Below, piece by piece: positions 1,903 to 46,990 of a stretch of DNA of 64,000 nt. Origin of the DNA: Corallococcus soli (lineage in GTDB: Bacteria > Myxococcota > Myxococcia > Myxococcales > Myxococcaceae); the NCBI RefSeq assembly GCF_014930455.1, contig NZ_JAAIYO010000007.1:248001-312000 (forward strand). Direction: 5' to 3'. Within the stretch, counting starts at the first letter, position 1. Each line of letters begins with the position of its first letter. Both the position numbers and the translations under genes were made by a program. The notes below the pieces were generated by a model that did no database searches, was not told the DNA's origin, and saw only the letters and a list, made by a program, of their open reading frames with translations.

Positions 1903-3843
1903 TCAGCTCTCGTCCACGTTCACGAAGGATTGCACCGGAATCACGTAGGGCAAGGAGCGCGACACGTAGCGAACCGTGGCCGTGTCCGCCGGAATTATGC
2001 CGCTCTCATCATAGGGGAACACCTCAGCGCCGAGCTGGCGATCACCCCCAATGTATTCCAGGCAGACCGGCAGGATCGTCCCATCCTCCCTGGTCAGCTC
2101 CGTGACCAGGAACCGTGTGCGGGTCTTCCCGAAGACGATCCTCACCTTGAAGTGATCGTTTCCCCGGCCCCCCCACGGAGCAGGTCCTTGAAGCCTCATG
2201 GAGCGCAATCCCTCGGAGACCGGGACCACGTCTTGCTTCTCCGCCCCGGACGTCCAGAGGGAAATCCCGTCGAGTGGCATCGGCAGCGCCCGCATGGCCC
2301 TCGCGGCGCCCCTGGGGCACGGGTCATGGGTGTCGCCCTCGATGCGGATCCTGCCAGTGCCGCCTCCGCAGGAAGCGCCCACACAGGCCGCGGTGGCCGC
2401 CCCGGCGATCTTGCGGAGGACACCCCCGTCCGTGCGCGGGGGCTTCACGGGCGTGGACGTGGCCGCGACCCTTTCGGCGTCCTGATTGGGCGCGGAGGGC
2501 GCCCCCTCGGGGGAAGTCCCCGCATCCGGGGCGGACGCCACCGCGAGCACGGAGGCGTCGGGAAGACTCGGGGTTGGGGTCACGGACGAACTTCCTTTCT
2601 CTGAATCAGGCGGGACAGCGGGGAGGCGGGTGCTCGGAGCCAAACGGAACAGACCGAAGACCAGCAGGCCCAGGAGCAGGACCCCCAGGCCCAGCACCCC
2701 GGCGGAGCGGCGGCGTCGCGCCCCGGACCGGGTTGGAGCGTCCGGAGGCGCCTCCTCCCCTGGAGCGGGCGAATCGGGCGGTGGAGACACACCCACGGAG
2801 GGGACCGGGGTCTCGACGGGCTCCGGCACCCGCGCGGGTCCAGCCGTCCCCGGGTACTGGGACAGCGACACCACGCCCCGGTCCACCAGCGGCGCCTCCC
2901 GGTCCACCGGGACGTCCAGCGACAGCTTCCACTCCTGCTGGCGCTTGTCCTTCGCGGCCTCCCAGAGCGCCTGCAGCAGCGTCTCCGTGCCCGAATAGCG
3001 GTCCTCGGGGCGCTTGGAGAGCAGCCGCATCGCGATGTCGCCCAGGGCCTGGGGCACCCTGGGGTTGACCTCGTGCGGGGCGCGCGGCACCACCGTTTCG
3101 ATGGCGGGCAGCAGCCGGTCGTAGGGCAGCCTCGGGTCGAACGCGTAACCGTCCGTCAGGGATTCGTAGAGCAGCGCGCCCAGCGCGTAGAGGTCGCCCG
3201 GCACGCCCGCGTCGAAGTTCGCGCCCGCCTTCCACGCGCCCTCGCGCAGGAAGGCCACGCATTCGGGCGGCAGCAGGTGCGGGGACGCGGGCGCCACGCC
3301 CACCGTCAGCGTGGAGGCCCCGGGAATGCGCGCGGTGCCCAGGTCGATGAGCACGGGGCGCTCGTCGGCGCGGCGGATGAGCAGGTTGTCCGCCTTCAGG
3401 TCCCGGTGGTGCACGCCCCGCCGGTGGAGGTCCGCCACCACCCGCACGACCTCCGTGTACACGGTCAGCAGGTGCGCGGCGGAGGGCTTCACCCGCCAGC
3501 GCCACTCATGGAACGTCTCTCCGTCCACGTAGTCGGTGACGTGGAAGAAGTAGCCGTCCGGCGGCGAGGGCCAGCGATCCACCGCGTGCACGCGCGGCAG
3601 GTTCGGATGCGGCGCGCAGGCGAGCAGCGCCGCCACTTCCCGCGACAGCCGGCCGTTGACGTCCTCCTCCTCCGCCGCGTGCGGCCCCGCCGGACGCAGC
3701 GCCAGCTTCAGCGCGTAGACGTGCCCGCCCCGCTCCACCTTGAACACCCGGCCGAAGCCCCCCGCGCCCAACGAGCCGACGATGCGCCACGGTCCGACGT
3801 GGTGGCCGACTTCCAGTTGGTCCGGGTGGAGCGGCGTCGTCAT
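1903..3843 (-). CDS. Membrane-anchored eukaryote-like Ser/Thr protein kinase
   Basis: 646 residues. The N-terminal kinase domain has a Gly-rich loop GAGGFG (26-31), ATP-binding Lys46, alpha-C Glu69, catalytic HRDLKADN with Asp148, and metal-binding Asp167 in DLG (instead of DFG). PPE replaces APE. A Pro/Ser/Asp-rich linker leads to one transmembrane helix at about 382-402, after a run of Arg. The C-terminal part of about 240 residues, probably periplasmic, has Cys residues but no domain I recognise. The residues needed for catalysis are present, so it is predicted active. The DUF2381 gene follows on the same strand and is likely co-transcribed. No clear ribosome site precedes the ATG. Confidence 0.93.
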   Translation of the reverse strand: MTTPLHPDQLEVGHHVGPWRIVGSLGAGGFGRVFKVERGGHVYALKLALRPAGPHAAEEEDVNGRLSREVAALLACAPHPNLPRVHAVDRWPSPPDGYFFHVTDYVDGETFHEWRWRVKPSAAHLLTVYTEVVRVVADLHRRGVHHRDLKADNLLIRRADERPVLIDLGTARIPGASTLTVGVAPASPHLLPPECVAFLREGAWKAGANFDAGVPGDLYALGALLYESLTDGYAFDPRLPYDRLLPAIETVVPRAPHEVNPRVPQALGDIAMRLLSKRPEDRYSGTETLLQALWEAAKDKRQQEWKLSLDVPVDREAPLVDRGVVSLSQYPGTAGPARVPEPVETPVPSVGVSPPPDSPAPGEEAPPDAPTRSGARRRRSAGVLGLGVLLLGLLVFGLFRLAPSTRLPAVPPDSEKGSSSVTPTPSLPDASVLAVASAPDAGTSPEGAPSAPNQDAERVAATSTPVKPPRTDGGVLRKIAGAATAACVGASCGGGTGRIRIEGDTHDPCPRGAARAMRALPMPLDGISLWTSGAEKQDVVPVSEGLRSMRLQGPAPWGGRGNDHFKVRIVFGKTRTRFLVTELTREDGTILPVCLEYIGGDRQLGAEVFPYDESGIIPADTATVRYVSRSLPYVIPVQSFVNVDES

Positions 3844-5421: not shown

Positions 5422-6596
5422 AGGAGCTCCGATACGCGCATGCCCGGCACCACGACCTTCCATACGTGCAGTCCCGGCAGCGGCGCGTCCAACGCCAGCG
5501 CCGCCACCCGCGCGAAGCCCGCGCGCTCCAGGCGCGTCAGCACCGTGCGCACCCGCGCCGCCACCGTGCGCGTGCTCCGGCTGTCCACCTCCGGCATCGC
5601 CTGCGCGAGGTGCCGGGGCCGCACCTCCGCCAGCGCCTGGGCGAACCCCAGCGCCGCGTCGCGGTCCGCGGCCTCCACGTCCTCGCGCGCGCCGTGGATG
5701 TCCGTCAGCCGCGACTGCGCGGCCTCCAGCAGGGCCTTGAGCAGCGCTTCGTCCCGCTCCAGCGCGCACGCATAGCCCGCCGTGAGCGGCACCGGCCCCT
5801 CCTCCGCGTCCACCAGCACCGCGGCCGCCACCGGCAGCCCCACCGCCCCGCGACCACCATGCCCACGGGGCGCGGGCGTCACGTCGAAGAGGTGGACGCG
5901 AAACCCGCGCGCGTGCAGCGCTTCGCACAGGGCGGCCGTGCGCGGCGCCCCGTCCCGCAGGCTCTCCGGGCGCACCATCCGCTTCACCACGCCGGCCTCC
6001 GTCCACCCCTCCGGCAGCGCGCGCGAGAGCTGGTCGCGCTCGGTGGCCTCCAGCAGCGCGTGCAGCAGGGCGCGCTCGGAGTCCGGGTGCGCCCCCGAAC
6101 CGTTCGTCGTCCAGCCCACCGACACGGGCCCCAGCTCCACCGTCCCCGAGGGCGGGCAGAACACCCCCTGCGCGGGCACCCAGACGGGCCGGTCGCCGCG
6201 CGCGTCCCTCGCCTCGCACCACGCCAGCCGCACGGCCGGCCCCGCGAGCCTGGGTACCGCCACCTGCCCCGCGGACCCCAGGGACTCCACGCCCCAGACG
6301 GGGTCGCCCGTCCGCTCCAGCTCCTCCCGGGTGCCCCAGCGCAGCCGCTCCGGGCGCACCGTCTCCGCCGCCCACAGCTCCGCGGTCTCCAGGAGCGCGC
6401 CCCGGGCCGCGTCCTCGAAGGTGAGCCCCTTGCCGTTGCAGACCTGGAGGACGTGGCCCCCGGGCCGCACCGCGCAGGCCACCTCCACGCCCGTGCGGTC
6501 CAGGCCGGTGACGCGCGCCACCCGCGTCACCCCCAGGGCGGTGGCGAGGGACGTACGGAAGGCGGCATCGTCTGGGTCGGTCCTGGCAGGCAACAC
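5418..6596 (-). CDS. YcaO-type cyclodehydratase/thioamidation ATPase
   Basis: 392 residues from a GTG at 6596; longer frames upstream read through the divergent gene and are not needed. YcaO ATP-binding motifs are visible: LLETAELWAAE, RALLHALLEATERDQL and the signature ALLKALLEAAQSRLTDIHG followed by ARED. These enzymes phosphorylate a peptide backbone amide to make azolines or thioamides. The C-terminus (ending VSELL) lacks the PxPxP tail of azoline-forming YcaOs, which fits a TfuA-dependent member. The tfuA-like gene overlaps its stop. No McbC-type dehydrogenase, E1-like protein or precursor peptide is adjacent, so the substrate may be encoded elsewhere or be a protein. Confidence 0.92.
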   Translation of the reverse strand: MLPARTDPDDAAFRTSLATALGVTRVARVTGLDRTGVEVACAVRPGGHVLQVCNGKGLTFEDAARGALLETAELWAAETVRPERLRWGTREELERTGDPVWGVESLGSAGQVAVPRLAGPAVRLAWCEARDARGDRPVWVPAQGVFCPPSGTVELGPVSVGWTTNGSGAHPDSERALLHALLEATERDQLSRALPEGWTEAGVVKRMVRPESLRDGAPRTAALCEALHARGFRVHLFDVTPAPRGHGGRGAVGLPVAAAVLVDAEEGPVPLTAGYACALERDEALLKALLEAAQSRLTDIHGAREDVEAADRDAALGFAQALAEVRPRHLAQAMPEVDSRSTRTVAARVRTVLTRLERAGFARVAALALDAPLPGLHVWKVVVPGMRVSELL

Positions 6597-43682: not shown

Positions 43683-45530
43683 ATGGCCCACCCCGCCCAA
43701 CCGCTCCCCCCGGAGCCCTCCCCCACCTTGTCGCCCGCGTCCGAGGCGGTGACCCCGCGCTTCCGCTTCCTGCCGGCGGTGAACACCTGGAAGTACCACC
43801 TGCTGCTCGCCACGGTGGCCATCCTCATCCTGGGCCCGCTGGGCGGCGTGGCCGCGTCGTACATGAACTTCAGCCTGGGCTTCTTCGTGGCCAGCCAGGT
43901 GCTCTCCGGCATCCTCGGCAGCGTCGTCACGTACGGCTACGGCGCGGAGGGCAAGCACGGCGCCAACTACATGCAGACGATGGCCGCGTCGGTGGCCTCG
44001 CTGTGCGCCATGTCCGTGCTGATCCAGGCAATGGTGTGGCTGGGCATGCCCCAGCCGCCCGCGTGGCAGCTCATGCTCTTCGTCGGCTGCGTGGGCATGT
44101 TCGGCGTGGGCGTGGGGATGCTCTACACGCCGCTGCTCGTGGACCGGCTCCAGTTGGACTACCCGTCCGGCTACGCGGTGGCCAACATCCTGCGCGCGCT
44201 CACGGACAAGCGCCTGCTCAAGGCGTCCATCGCGAAGCTGGGCGGCGGCACCGGCCTGGGCATCCTCGCCGCGTTTCTGACGGAGAAGGTCGCGGCCGTG
44301 GCCGCGCTGAGCGTGAGCAGCTCCACGGTGGGCGCCGGCATGGTGGTGGGCAGCCGCATCACCGTGCCCGCGATGTGCATGGGCCTCCTGGGCTTCGCCA
44401 TCACCCCGTTCCTGCAGGGCATCGGGTGGCTGGGGCCCGATGATCCGTACCGGAAGATCGGCTTCCTCATCTCGCTGGCGATGATCTGTGGCGCGGCGAT
44501 GGTGGACCTGGCGCTGCTGGCGGTGCAGGCGGTGGCGCGCATCCGGAGCCGCGCGCAGGCGCCGGTGGACGACGAGCCGGCCTGGAAGAAGGTCAACGTG
44601 CCCCGGCTCATCGCCTGGGTGGTGGGCTGGGGCGCGGCGGTCGTCGTCGTCGCCACGCAGGTGCTGAACCAGCCCGCGGGCTTCATCATCTTCGGGCTCG
44701 CGCTGTCGCTGCTGTTCGTGCTCATCAACGGCATCGCCTACGGCATCAGCGACAACAACCCCATCTCCAGCGCGTTCGTGATGTCGGTGCTGCTCATGTC
44801 GCTGCTGGGCCTGAAGGATCCGCTGGTGGGCCTGATGGCGTCCTCCATCCTGCTCATCTCCACGTCGGTGGGCTGCGACATGCAGCAGGACCGCTCCACC
44901 GGCTGGCGCCTGGGCACCAACCGCGTGGTGCAGTTCCGCTACCAGGTGCTGGGCATCTTCATGGGCGCGGTGCTGTGCGTGGGCCTGGCGCGCGTGTTCA
45001 TGGGCGCCTATCCGGTGCTGTCCATCAACCAGTTGGATCACCCCGACACGCAGGTGGGCCAGTGGGGCAGCGCGATGACGTACAAGTTCGTGGGCGCCAT
45101 CCGCGACCTGGGCGCGCTGTCGGAATACAAGGTGAAGGCGCTGCTCATCGGCCTGGGCATCGGCTTCACGATGGAGGTCCTGCGCAAGGTCATCCGGCGT
45201 CACCCGGCGTACCTGCGCTTCGTGCAGGGCTCGCGGCGGGGCTTCGCGGCGGGCTACGTGATGGACTCGGTGGTGCTGCCGAGCCCCTACGCGGCCGCGT
45301 TCGGTGGCTTCATCGCGCTGCCGGCCACGCTCTGGTTCGGCGTGGGCGGCGTGCTCACGTCGCTGTTCAACACCTTCTCCAAGCGCTTCACCCGCGAGCC
45401 CGCGCCGGGCGCGGCGGTCCTCCCGGAGGACATGAGCACCATGTCGCTGGTGGGCGGCGGTCTCATCGCCGGCGAGTCGCTCTTCTACCTGTTCCTCGGC
45501 CTGTTCGGCCTGCTGGCGCTGCTGAACTGA
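43683..45530 (+). CDS. OPT family oligopeptide transporter
   Basis: 615 residues with roughly 14-16 transmembrane helices. OPT landmarks include GGVAASYMNFSLGFF, TYGYGAEGKHGANYMQ, the conserved YPSGYAVANILRAL, and late GLGIGFTMEVLRKVIRRHP. It would import small peptides or metal chelates by proton symport. The Met at 43683 follows the gene start region directly after the divergent MBL gene. The ThrRS leader begins 62 bp after its stop; no terminator is evident between. Confidence 0.93.
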   Translation: MAHPAQPLPPEPSPTLSPASEAVTPRFRFLPAVNTWKYHLLLATVAILILGPLGGVAASYMNFSLGFFVASQVLSGILGSVVTYGYGAEGKHGANYMQTMAASVASLCAMSVLIQAMVWLGMPQPPAWQLMLFVGCVGMFGVGVGMLYTPLLVDRLQLDYPSGYAVANILRALTDKRLLKASIAKLGGGTGLGILAAFLTEKVAAVAALSVSSSTVGAGMVVGSRITVPAMCMGLLGFAITPFLQGIGWLGPDDPYRKIGFLISLAMICGAAMVDLALLAVQAVARIRSRAQAPVDDEPAWKKVNVPRLIAWVVGWGAAVVVVATQVLNQPAGFIIFGLALSLLFVLINGIAYGISDNNPISSAFVMSVLLMSLLGLKDPLVGLMASSILLISTSVGCDMQQDRSTGWRLGTNRVVQFRYQVLGIFMGAVLCVGLARVFMGAYPVLSINQLDHPDTQVGQWGSAMTYKFVGAIRDLGALSEYKVKALLIGLGIGFTMEVLRKVIRRHPAYLRFVQGSRRGFAAGYVMDSVVLPSPYAAAFGGFIALPATLWFGVGGVLTSLFNTFSKRFTREPAPGAAVLPEDMSTMSLVGGGLIAGESLFYLFLGLFGLLALLN

Positions 45531-45592
45531 CGGCCCCTGTCATCCCGGCGCACGGCTTGACTTTCCGTGCGTCCGGGAGCACTTCTTGTCCC

Positions 45593-45676
45593 GTGAGCCT
45601 CTTCATCACCACCACCGCGACCACGACCACCACCGCTTCGGCGGGAGTGGGACCGGTGCGCGTGTCGGTGGTCTGA
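45593..45676 (+). CDS. Threonine-rich leader peptide of the thrS-like gene
   Basis: A 27-residue peptide from GTG to TGA, MSLFITTTATTTTT followed by ASAGVGPVRVSVV. Eight of nine consecutive codons are Thr (ACC/ACG), the signature of attenuation leader peptides that sense charged tRNA-Thr. It sits 111 bp before a ThrRS-like gene. TTGACT at 45557 could be a -35 box that places the transcription start next to the GTG, giving a leaderless peptide; GGGAG lies 13 bases before the GTG. Nothing suggests function as a protein. Confidence 0.75.
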   Translation: MSLFITTTATTTTTASAGVGPVRVSVV

Positions 45677-45725
45677 CGAGCGCACGGTTTCCCGCCCCGC
45701 CGAGTTCCGGCCGGGGCGACCGTGC
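45625..45725 (+). promoter_or_regulatory. Predicted ribosome-mediated attenuator with competing hairpins
   Basis: Three mutually exclusive pairings are visible. 1:2 pairs Thr codons 45625-45631 (GACCACC) with 45667-45673 (GGTGGTC). 2:3 pairs 45656-45661 (GTGCGC) with 45680-45685 (GCGCAC). 3:4 pairs 45682-45688 (GCACGGT) with 45719-45725 (ACCGTGC), enclosing a strong inner stem (CGCCCCG at 45693 with CGGGGCG at 45712). Ribosome stalling on Thr codons would block 1:2, allow 2:3 and prevent 3:4. There is no U-tract, so termination may be Rho-aided or the hairpin may act otherwise. Confidence 0.65.
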
Positions 45726-45738
45726 AAGCACTCACGCC

Positions 45739-45777
45739 CCGTGTCCGGCCCCGGCTCCCCACCCGACCGACACACGG
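45739..45777 (+). promoter_or_regulatory. Hairpin overlapping the thrS-like ribosome site
   Basis: CCGTGT (45739-45744) pairs with ACACGG (45772-45777), whose last bases belong to the GGAG Shine-Dalgarno (45776-45779) before the ATG at 45788. It could hide the ribosome site when the upstream leader is unstructured. Confidence 0.35.
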
Positions 45778-45787
45778 AGACACGACG

Positions 45788-46990
45788 ATGCTCGACGAAC
45801 ATGACCACCGCGCGCTGGGCCAGCGCCTGGACCTCTTCCACCTGCAGGAAGAGGCCCCGGGCATGGTGTTCTGGCACCCGCGCGGACTGATGCTGTACCG
45901 CCTGCTGGAGGAGCACGTCCGCCACCGCATGCGCGACGAGGGCTACCAGGAAGTCCGTACGCCGCAGCTGTTCTCCCAGCCGCTCTGGGAGCAGAGCGGC
46001 CACTGGGAGAACTTCCGCGAGAACATGTTCTGCCTGCCCGAGGGCGACCGGTTCCTGGCCCTCAAGCCGGTGAGCTGCCCGGGCCACATCCACCTCGTGC
46101 AGCGCATGGCGCCCAGCCACCGCGACCTGCCCCTGCGCCTGGGGGAGTTCGGGCTCGTGCACCGCAGCGAGCCCAGCGGCGCGCTGCATGGGCTGTTCCG
46201 CCTGCGCCAGTTCACGCAGGACGACGGCCACATCTTCTGCGCTCCGGAGCAGGTGGAGGCGGAGGTGGTGCGCTACGTGAAGTCGCTCAAGGCGTTCTAC
46301 GCGGGCTTCGGCTTCGACGCCGTGCAGGTGGCCTTCTCCGGGCGCCCGGCCATGCGCGCCGGCAGCGACGCGCTGTGGGACCAGGCGGAGGCGTGGCTCC
46401 AGTCCGCCGCGCGGCAGGCGGGGCTCCAGTTCGAGGAGCAGCCGGGCCAGGGCGCCTTCTACGGGCCCAAGCTGGAGTTCGTGCTCCAGGACCGGCTGGG
46501 CCGCGCGTGGCAGTGCGGGACGATCCAACTGGACCTGGTGCTGCCGGAGCGCTTCGACCTGCACTACGTCGACGCGGCCGGCGCACGCATGCGCCCGGTG
46601 ATGCTTCACCGCGCGCTGTTCGGCAGCCTGGAGCGGTTCATCGGCATCCTGCTGGAGCACCACGGGGGCGCGCTGCCCGCGTGGCTCGCGCCCGAACAGG
46701 TGGTGGTGGCCTCCGTGGGCGCGGGGGCCGCCGCGTACGCGGAGCGGCTGGCGTCACGGTTGAGACAGGCGGGCTGTCGCGCGAGGGCGGACGTGCGGGA
46801 CGAGTCGCTGTCGAAGAAGGTGCTGGGCTCGCACGAGGCCAGCGTGCCCTTCCTCGCGGTGGTGGGTGGCCGCGAGGTGGAGGCGAACAACGTCCGCCTG
46901 CGCCAGCGCGACGGCGCCCAGCGCGACCTGCCCTGGGATGAGGCGGTGTCGTGGCTGTCCGCCGCGTGCCAGCCGGCCGTGGCGGGCTGA
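45788..46990 (+). CDS. thrS: Threonyl-tRNA synthetase-like protein lacking TGS and editing domains
   Basis: 400 residues against about 640 for full ThrRS. The class II catalytic core is present: FWHPRGLMLYR, PVSCPGHIH (zinc Cys), motif 2 with FGLVHRSEPSGALHGLFRLRQFTQDDGHIF, the GAFYGPKLEF and WQCGTIQLDLVLPERF strands, and motif 3 MLHRALFGSLERFIGILLEHH. An anticodon-binding domain follows (VVVASVGAGAAAYAERL). The N-terminal TGS and editing domains are absent, so it cannot remove mischarged Ser itself. It may be a second, stress- or antibiotic-related copy. An upstream Thr-rich leader suggests control by tRNA-Thr charging. Confidence 0.93.
   Translation: MLDEHDHRALGQRLDLFHLQEEAPGMVFWHPRGLMLYRLLEEHVRHRMRDEGYQEVRTPQLFSQPLWEQSGHWENFRENMFCLPEGDRFLALKPVSCPGHIHLVQRMAPSHRDLPLRLGEFGLVHRSEPSGALHGLFRLRQFTQDDGHIFCAPEQVEAEVVRYVKSLKAFYAGFGFDAVQVAFSGRPAMRAGSDALWDQAEAWLQSAARQAGLQFEEQPGQGAFYGPKLEFVLQDRLGRAWQCGTIQLDLVLPERFDLHYVDAAGARMRPVMLHRALFGSLERFIGILLEHHGGALPAWLAPEQVVVASVGAGAAAYAERLASRLRQAGCRARADVRDESLSKKVLGSHEASVPFLAVVGGREVEANNVRLRQRDGAQRDLPWDEAVSWLSAACQPAVAG

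Follow-up and report, generated by a model that had tools for sequence, protein, structure and literature searches.

A conserved threonine-codon leader and alternative RNA folds upstream of a truncated threonyl-tRNA synthetase gene in Myxococcaceae

The stretch of Corallococcus soli DNA analysed here (64,000 nt, hereafter the window) carries on its plus strand a short reading frame dominated by threonine codons, followed by thrS2, a gene for a truncated second threonyl-tRNA synthetase (ThrRS). Attenuation by the Thr leader at thrS2 is very likely, and comparison of the sequences makes it probable that the leader reads the level of charged tRNA-Thr by ribosome-mediated attenuation and governs the spare ThrRS through the Shine-Dalgarno (SD) sequence of its gene. 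That a Thr-codon leader attenuator controls a ThrRS gene had been proposed in a sequence-only reading of the window, and the conserved Thr run, the conserved stems and the linkage to thrS2 lend support to the proposal; that reading overlooked a promoter-like element, the pairing GGCGGG:CCCGCC and two further pairings, termed 4:5 and 5:6 below.

The leader frame, its promoter and the gene downstream

The leader frame (45593–45676, plus strand) runs from a GTG start to a TGA stop over 27 codons, with the translation VSLFITTTATTTTTASAGVGPVRVSVV, and its codons 6–14 (TTTATTTTT, 45608–45634), which form the Thr run and the putative sensor (segment 1), include eight Thr codons in nine. The stop lies 111 nt from the ATG of thrS2 (45788–46990, plus strand), and the 400-aa product of that gene scored 454.6 bits against the NCBIfam thrS profile TIGR00418, above the curated cut-off of 383.65, so that codon reading and profile match together bear out the earlier claim of a 27-codon, Thr-rich frame before a ThrRS-like gene. 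The match begins at position 170 of the 565 in the profile, the only Pfam domains are tRNA-synt_2b and HGTP_anticodon (catalytic core plus anticodon domain), and the N-terminal TGS and editing domains of full-length bacterial ThrRS are absent. A full-length ThrRS with 47% identity to the thrS2 product is also encoded in the genome, which makes thrS2 a spare copy; the gene after the leader does encode a ThrRS, as had been stated, but a truncated second copy and not the housekeeping enzyme. Upstream of the housekeeping thrS, over 758 nt reaching to about the likely start, no frame with at least four Thr codons in nine was found. In locus L002 the housekeeping thrS is closely preceded by a tRNA-Val (GAC) gene (3447–3518); the window itself yielded a single tRNA gene, for tRNA-Ser (GGA; 5471–5568, minus strand).

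thrS2 was found in 66 of 96 Myxococcaceae genomes (E 1e-140 or better), and in all 66 loci the leader frame is kept and a Thr run with six to eight Thr codons in nine stands upstream of the gene, the distance from leader end to ATG being 100–123 nt. The runs use ACC 319 times, ACG 125 times, ACT 72 times and ACA never; two run positions are Thr in every locus, one of them written with three different codons. The four other Myxococcota loci examined all have a Thr leader (eight Thr codons in nine in L007, seven in L010, six in L148 and five in L149), and among 76 ThrRS loci screened, only L007 and L010, which are short-frame genes, have an upstream frame of less than 150 aa and, likewise, only these have a Thr leader. 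In wider searches, thrS2 was present in 67 of 145 order-level and 68 of 195 phylum-level genomes, overlapping sets to which different cut-offs were applied. A covariance model trained on 33 loci and run against the 195 phylum genomes (E 0.01, stricter filters) found the element in 65 genomes, with one hit in each, in every case just upstream of thrS2 when coordinates were compared by eye, a count to be read with the 33 training loci in mind; it gave no match in the thrS2 genomes G001, G081 and G162 or in the other 127 genomes. Conservation of the Thr run and stems, proposed earlier as a check on the attenuator, was thus seen in all 66 relatives with thrS2 and also beyond the phylum.

The agreement between codon and enzyme had been taken as strong evidence against chance. 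The Thr run alone is indecisive in this respect, and it is the conservation in 66 of 66 relatives that carries the claim. Across the 9.4-Mb genome the forward Thr-run pattern occurs at two places, one of them the leader itself, and the reversed pattern, used as a control, gave 8 + 13 occurrences. A low-complexity ACC repeat, translated or not and with no regulatory role, would fit a bare pattern that is not rare in the genome; the observed linkage of the run to thrS2 across two phyla, with synonymous codon change, strongly disfavours that reading, to which we give almost no credence. We also regard it as very improbable that a T-box, or ThrRS binding to its own mRNA, regulates the gene while the Thr-rich frame is incidental: PMC2965389 mentions that the threonyl-tRNA synthetase of E. 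coli controls its own expression, but here the Thr run is kept in all 66 loci while its Thr codons vary, no T-box or other Rfam family reached its gathering score in the window, nothing relevant appeared at E 0.5 in the scanned loci, and an Rfam scan of part of the loci returned sub-threshold microRNA models only.

Ahead of the leader stand a −35-like box (TTGACT, 45557–45562) and, with 17-nt spacing, a −10-like box (CACTTC, 45580–45585), both on the plus strand. TTGAC is present in 66 of 66 relatives, its first base lying exactly 36 nt from the leader start in 59 and 35–39 nt in all 66; the −10 box, weak in the window, reads CAYYTT in many relatives and TAGATT in most of the loci resembling that of Burkholderia arboris (B. 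arboris-like loci). A strict sigma-70 scan did not report the window promoter, whose −10 hexamer is poor. With a −10 hexamer 17 nt past the TTGAC box, transcription is expected from the leader start codon, and none of the 66 Myxococcaceae loci has an SD-like 4-mer at −16 to −4 of the leader start; the promoter spacing, which puts the start at the GTG, and the missing SD predict that the leader peptide should be leaderless. Boxes in the B. arboris-like clade come close to consensus (TTGACA with TAGATT or TACATT), the start codon lying 35 nt from the −35 box in 10 of 10 measured, and across the Pseudomonadota leaders the start lies 35–37 nt from the TTGAC box in 21 of 22 measured (L166 and L188 being near-identical). 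Retention of a leaderless leader peptide across two phyla is, to our knowledge, unusual outside Actinobacteria. An OPT-family transporter gene on the same strand (43716–45530) ends 26 nt before the −35-like box, which places the leader promoter directly behind the transporter gene.

Alternative folds and the predicted output

Beyond the Thr codons, the leader RNA was divided into the end of the leader frame (segment 2), the two arms of a strong post-stop stem (segments 3 and 4), a C-rich arm (segment 5) and the SD arm (segment 6), all on the plus strand. Segment 2 offers two pairings with segment 3: segment 2a (GGCGGG, 45640–45645) pairs with CCCGCC at 45696–45701, a pairing chosen by RNAalifold, with 99.0% of cells paired and present in the local minimum free energy (MFE) fold of 65 of 66 loci, and segment 2b (GTGCGC, 45656–45661) pairs with GCGCAC at 45680–45685, with 86.4% of cells paired and in the local MFE of 56 of 66. 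Segment 3 (GCGCACGGT...GCCCCGCC, 45680–45701) can alternatively pair with segment 4 (CCGGCCGGGGC...ACCGTGC, 45707–45725), in a stem built from GCACGGT (45682–45688) with ACCGTGC (45719–45725) and extended by GCCCCGCC (45694–45701) with CCGGCCGGGGC (45707–45717). Segment 4 can in turn pair with segment 5 (CGCCCCGTGTCCGG, 45735–45748), whose other partner is the SD arm (ACACGGAG, 45772–45779); the SD itself, GGAG at 45776–45779, is invariant in 66 of 66 Myxococcaceae loci.

The stems at 45656–45685 and 45682–45725 that had been read from the window are both present (GTGCGC/GCGCAC and GCACGGT/ACCGTGC), and of the three competing pairings suggested with them, 2:3 and 3:4 are conserved, whereas 1:2 is inconsistent by eye and found in some groups only. 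In the computed structures the segments form two mutually exclusive, apparently conserved folds, in which 3:4 with 5:6 would hide the thrS2 SD (OFF) and 2:3 with 4:5 would free it (ON). RNAalifold chose 2:3 + 4:5 unprompted on all 66 sequences and again on 33 sequences, the 4:5 pairing being part of the consensus fold, with 98.7–98.8% of cells paired and in the local MFE of 64 of 66. The four single-sequence folds inspected gave 3:4 with the SD hairpin, and the SD hairpin is present in most of the 66 local folds. The cells of 2:3 + 4:5 were 95.5% paired, against at most 57% with slid partners, and those of 3:4 + 5:6 were 92.2% paired, against at most 46%. Compared with dinucleotide shuffles, z in the window was −5.8 for 2:3, −4.0 for 3:4, −2.45 for 4:5 and −0.95 for 5:6, and the mean z of the 66 loci was −4.3, −4.0, −1.8 and −1.6, respectively.

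A short ORF rich in the cognate codon and exclusive computed structures overlapping the end of that ORF, features by which a leader-peptide attenuator is recognised, are both found here. In the mechanism we propose, transcription would begin at the leader GTG, or one or two bases from it, and a ribosome would load onto the leaderless message. With plentiful Thr-tRNA, the ribosome would reach the stop and clear segment 2, segment 3 would pair with 4, and segment 5, left free, would pair with the SD arm, leaving thrS2 untranslated. With scarce Thr-tRNA, the ribosome would stall early in the Thr run, the emerging segment 2 would pair with 3, and segment 4 would pair with 5, releasing the SD so that the spare synthetase could be produced. 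It counts against the model that stalling at the final Thr codon would place the ribosome over segment 2a.

The terminator-like stem lacks a U-tract, as had been observed for the window: no T run of at least four follows within 25 nt after the strong stem in 69 of 70 myxobacterial loci, the window included, the sole exception being L148 with a T run of four. A terminator scan of the window region left the 3:4 stem unreported and gave only another site at 45562–45579. The lack of a U-tract favours translational output in the myxobacterial loci, and the SD is paired in the default computed folds; the earlier guess of a translational or Rho-dependent output fits the absent U-tract and the conserved SD hairpin, and a translational output appears the likelier case in the window. 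The SD hairpin of the window is weak, no stronger than those of shuffles (4.3 versus 4.2 kcal/mol), and in the clade to which the window belongs it does not exceed them either. With a 5% threshold it surpasses shuffles in 28 of 70 loci, the window not among them, and it scores below shuffles in L147 and L149. Among Pseudomonadota the same threshold is passed in 15 of 25 loci, and perfect complements of the SD arm of at least 6 nt occur in many of these loci, reaching 10 nt in those resembling Caballeronia.

The main rival for the output is Rho, on account of the C-rich stretch from segment 4 to the SD (C 54% and G 20% in the window; in 39 of 66 loci, a C content at least double that of G). The same Thr sensor would then act on premature termination, in that the untranslated, C-rich stretch from the leader stop to thrS2 would recruit Rho in the unstalled state, and stalling would alter the fold and spare the transcript. 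The absent U-tract agrees with this account, but a GC-rich genome commonly has C-rich stretches, and Rho leaves unexplained a matching SD-arm partner whose bases change along with the SD arm; we hold it to be rather unlikely.

Covariation bears on the preferred SD switch unevenly. In the 66 loci, covariation of the ON helices was not beyond that of shuffles, largely because these helices hardly vary. The OFF structure has 23 cells changed on both sides, a number reached by none of 500 shuffles, and its covariation score was matched by one slid control (0.062 versus 0.057). When mapped on the thrS2 tree, the OFF double changes rest on few independent events, and at the pair adjoining the SD arm 31 sequences have T-A and 19 have A-T, a total of six changes being counted there. 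Compensatory changes, the sign earlier sought in the stems, are thus present, but they are few and come from few events.

Both states had also been put forward for folding, and two folds can indeed be computed, but plain equilibrium folding gives no switch: mean SD accessibility was 0.10–0.15 for either ribosome position, Thr run or stop codon, so that a switch would need co-transcriptional kinetics. Freeing segment 4 instead of sequestering it raised SD accessibility by more than 0.2 in only 5 of 66 loci, and since accessibility by probability is too insensitive, the cost of opening the SD was used instead. This cost averaged 8.0 kcal/mol in the OFF fold and 4.25 kcal/mol in the ON fold over the 66 loci, being higher in the OFF fold in 64 of them, and in the window it was 5.1 versus 2.3 kcal/mol. 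In the stalled context, enforcing 2:3 + 4:5 costs 0.8 kcal/mol relative to the MFE in the window and at most 2 kcal/mol in 25 of 66 loci, with an average of 5.4 and a maximum of 26 kcal/mol over the 66. With the ON fold near the MFE in the window and SD opening cheaper in it, a kinetic switch of the leader RNA is possible.

Related leaders and members in Pseudomonadota

The enterobacterial thr operon leader (Rfam RF00506, Thr_leader) also has a Thr-codon run followed by alternative hairpins, but it controls biosynthesis genes rather than a ThrRS gene, and its model scored 16.7 bits (E = 1) in the window over the full model length, the gathering score being 55. In Streptomyces lividans, leader peptides precede thrS, leuS, trpS and alaS, as given in the accessible part of PMC8079986. 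The S. lividans thrL-thrS arrangement described there resembles the present case in its leader peptide, leaderless transcript and hairpin without a U-rich stretch, and differs in having two Thr in 18 residues (MKRVRPFLETTPGFVPAR), compared with runs of six to nine here; the same part of PMC8079986 describes it without an SD hairpin or truncated paralogue, unlike thrS2, and it is by this description that the two are set apart. The cysS uORFC-8-2 motif of Rhodobacterales is likewise a leader-peptide attenuator before a synthetase gene, but has two tandem Cys codons and a U run consistent with an intrinsic terminator (PMC8632094, excerpted text). In the actinobacterial LEU element and ileS T-boxes, the SD is hidden by RNA pairing, as proposed here; the LEU element also has a leader peptide, but there it is the run of Leu codons that the SD is paired with, and the ileS elements are T-boxes and not leader peptides, unlike the thrS2 leader (excerpts of PMC1262725). 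The leuS and trpS genes of Streptomyces and hisS of bacilli are synthetase genes, some duplicated, with cognate leader peptides, as here, but the excerpts at hand describe transcription attenuation, concern other amino acids and deal with enzymes other than a short ThrRS (PMC1262725, PMC2965389). As leader peptides before synthetase genes are already known, the attenuation principle is not new; no account of the thrS2 leader element was found in searches of an open-access library, and the element represents a family missing from Rfam, the addition of which would aid the correct naming of short ThrRS genes and of the small frames upstream of them.

A short ThrRS of 407 aa is encoded on a Burkholderia arboris replicon; its leader reads MNARFVTTTTTTTTTANGGLGGGCTS, and a T run comes after the stem. 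Among 299 genomes of the Cupriavidus family (centre G196), 71 ThrRS matches were obtained at E 1e-145, and 22 of these (L167–L188), judged by open frame, have the short form; all 22 short ThrRS loci in this Cupriavidus/Burkholderia family have a Thr run of six to nine in nine codons. Apart from small variations, their stem is GCCCCGCCGG...CGGACGGGGC, similar to that of the myxobacteria, and it is followed by a T run of five to seven in 11 of 11 B. arboris-like loci (L167–L177), whereas L178–L188, of which L188 matches Caballeronia sp. SBC2 (L166), have no T run of at least five after it. In L170, nine Thr are followed by an apparent one-base frameshift in a G run, which may be a real change or an assembly error. 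A search of 398 Pseudomonadota genomes gave five matches at E 1e-150, two of them new; the leaders of these two, found by eye, are poorer in Thr. L197 and L198, which are divergent members from Pseudomonadota, have a reduced number of Thr codons (VTTTWT and TTTATA) and a similar stem with five or four T after it (five in L197), and one of them has a Trp codon inside the run.

The B. arboris-like cassette also has an intrinsic terminator, a stem with its U-tract, so that transcription is probably controlled in that clade as well. The T runs there and in L197, together with the four T of L148, speak for classical transcription attenuation in the window too, with 3:4 as an intrinsic terminator that is poor or otherwise works without a U-tract; the 69 of 70 myxobacterial loci that have no such run near the stem, and the failure of the terminator scan to report it, make this distinctly improbable. 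SD control thus stays our preferred reading for the myxobacterial loci, and the members form a natural series, one attenuator with and without a terminator, many members retaining the SD hairpin, which lends itself to direct study of a shift from transcriptional to translational output.

In a 64-row tree, 35 short ThrRS proteins stand apart from full-length ThrRS on a branch with values of 100/100 (the root serving for drawing only), and this branch splits into a myxobacterial and a Pseudomonadota group; L149 and L010 are deep, long-branched rows. The simplest reading of these sequences is one origin of the short enzyme and its leader, probably followed by transfer between phyla.

Possible roles of the short enzyme

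Zinc-ligand and active-site residues were located in the thrS2 product at what we take to be the corresponding ThrRS positions, and all residues presumed to be catalytic or zinc-binding are present. In the genome search, the thrS2 matches of G005, G006, G035 and G037 showed one in-frame stop within the aligned range, perhaps giving a slightly shorter C-terminus. A spare, editing-free synthetase suggests an emergency enzyme summoned by uncharged tRNA. More tentatively, the leaderless Thr sensor, the RNA switch and the editing-free ThrRS may together form a self-contained, horizontally spread cassette whose output switched in evolution and whose product is a costly emergency enzyme. If so, a terminator with an SD hairpin (B. 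arboris-like) would have given way to the SD hairpin alone (Caballeronia-like, Myxococcaceae), the proofreading-free synthetase would be made only when Thr-tRNA is exhausted, and starvation or a ThrRS inhibitor would be countered at the cost of Ser-for-Thr errors.

Antibiotic resistance through known residues was considered for ThrRS2 and rejected. ThrRS of the ObaO type, resistant to obafluorin and borrelidin, have Ser or Ala at E. coli Gly463, as stated in the available part of PMC11252418; by alignment, Gly226 of ThrRS2 corresponds to Gly463 and Leu252 to Leu489, and since both are retained, ThrRS2 carries no known obafluorin or borrelidin resistance change. The housekeeping ThrRS apparently has Ala at the E. 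coli Leu489 position by alignment, a site discussed for inhibitor binding in the same part of PMC11252418. A role of thrS2 in zinc stress, like that of Anabaena T2 in the excerpted text of PMC4787780, may also be envisaged, but ThrRS2 has its own Thr leader, and of four plasmid ThrRS regions examined, both with an annotated thrS encode full-length enzymes. One of these full-length plasmid genes, from Klebsiella (L163), lies beside metal transporter, hemB and dihydroorotase genes, and the other, from Acetobacter (L164), beside folE, DUF1826 and transcriptional repressor genes, each neighbourhood resembling a metal-limitation gene set.
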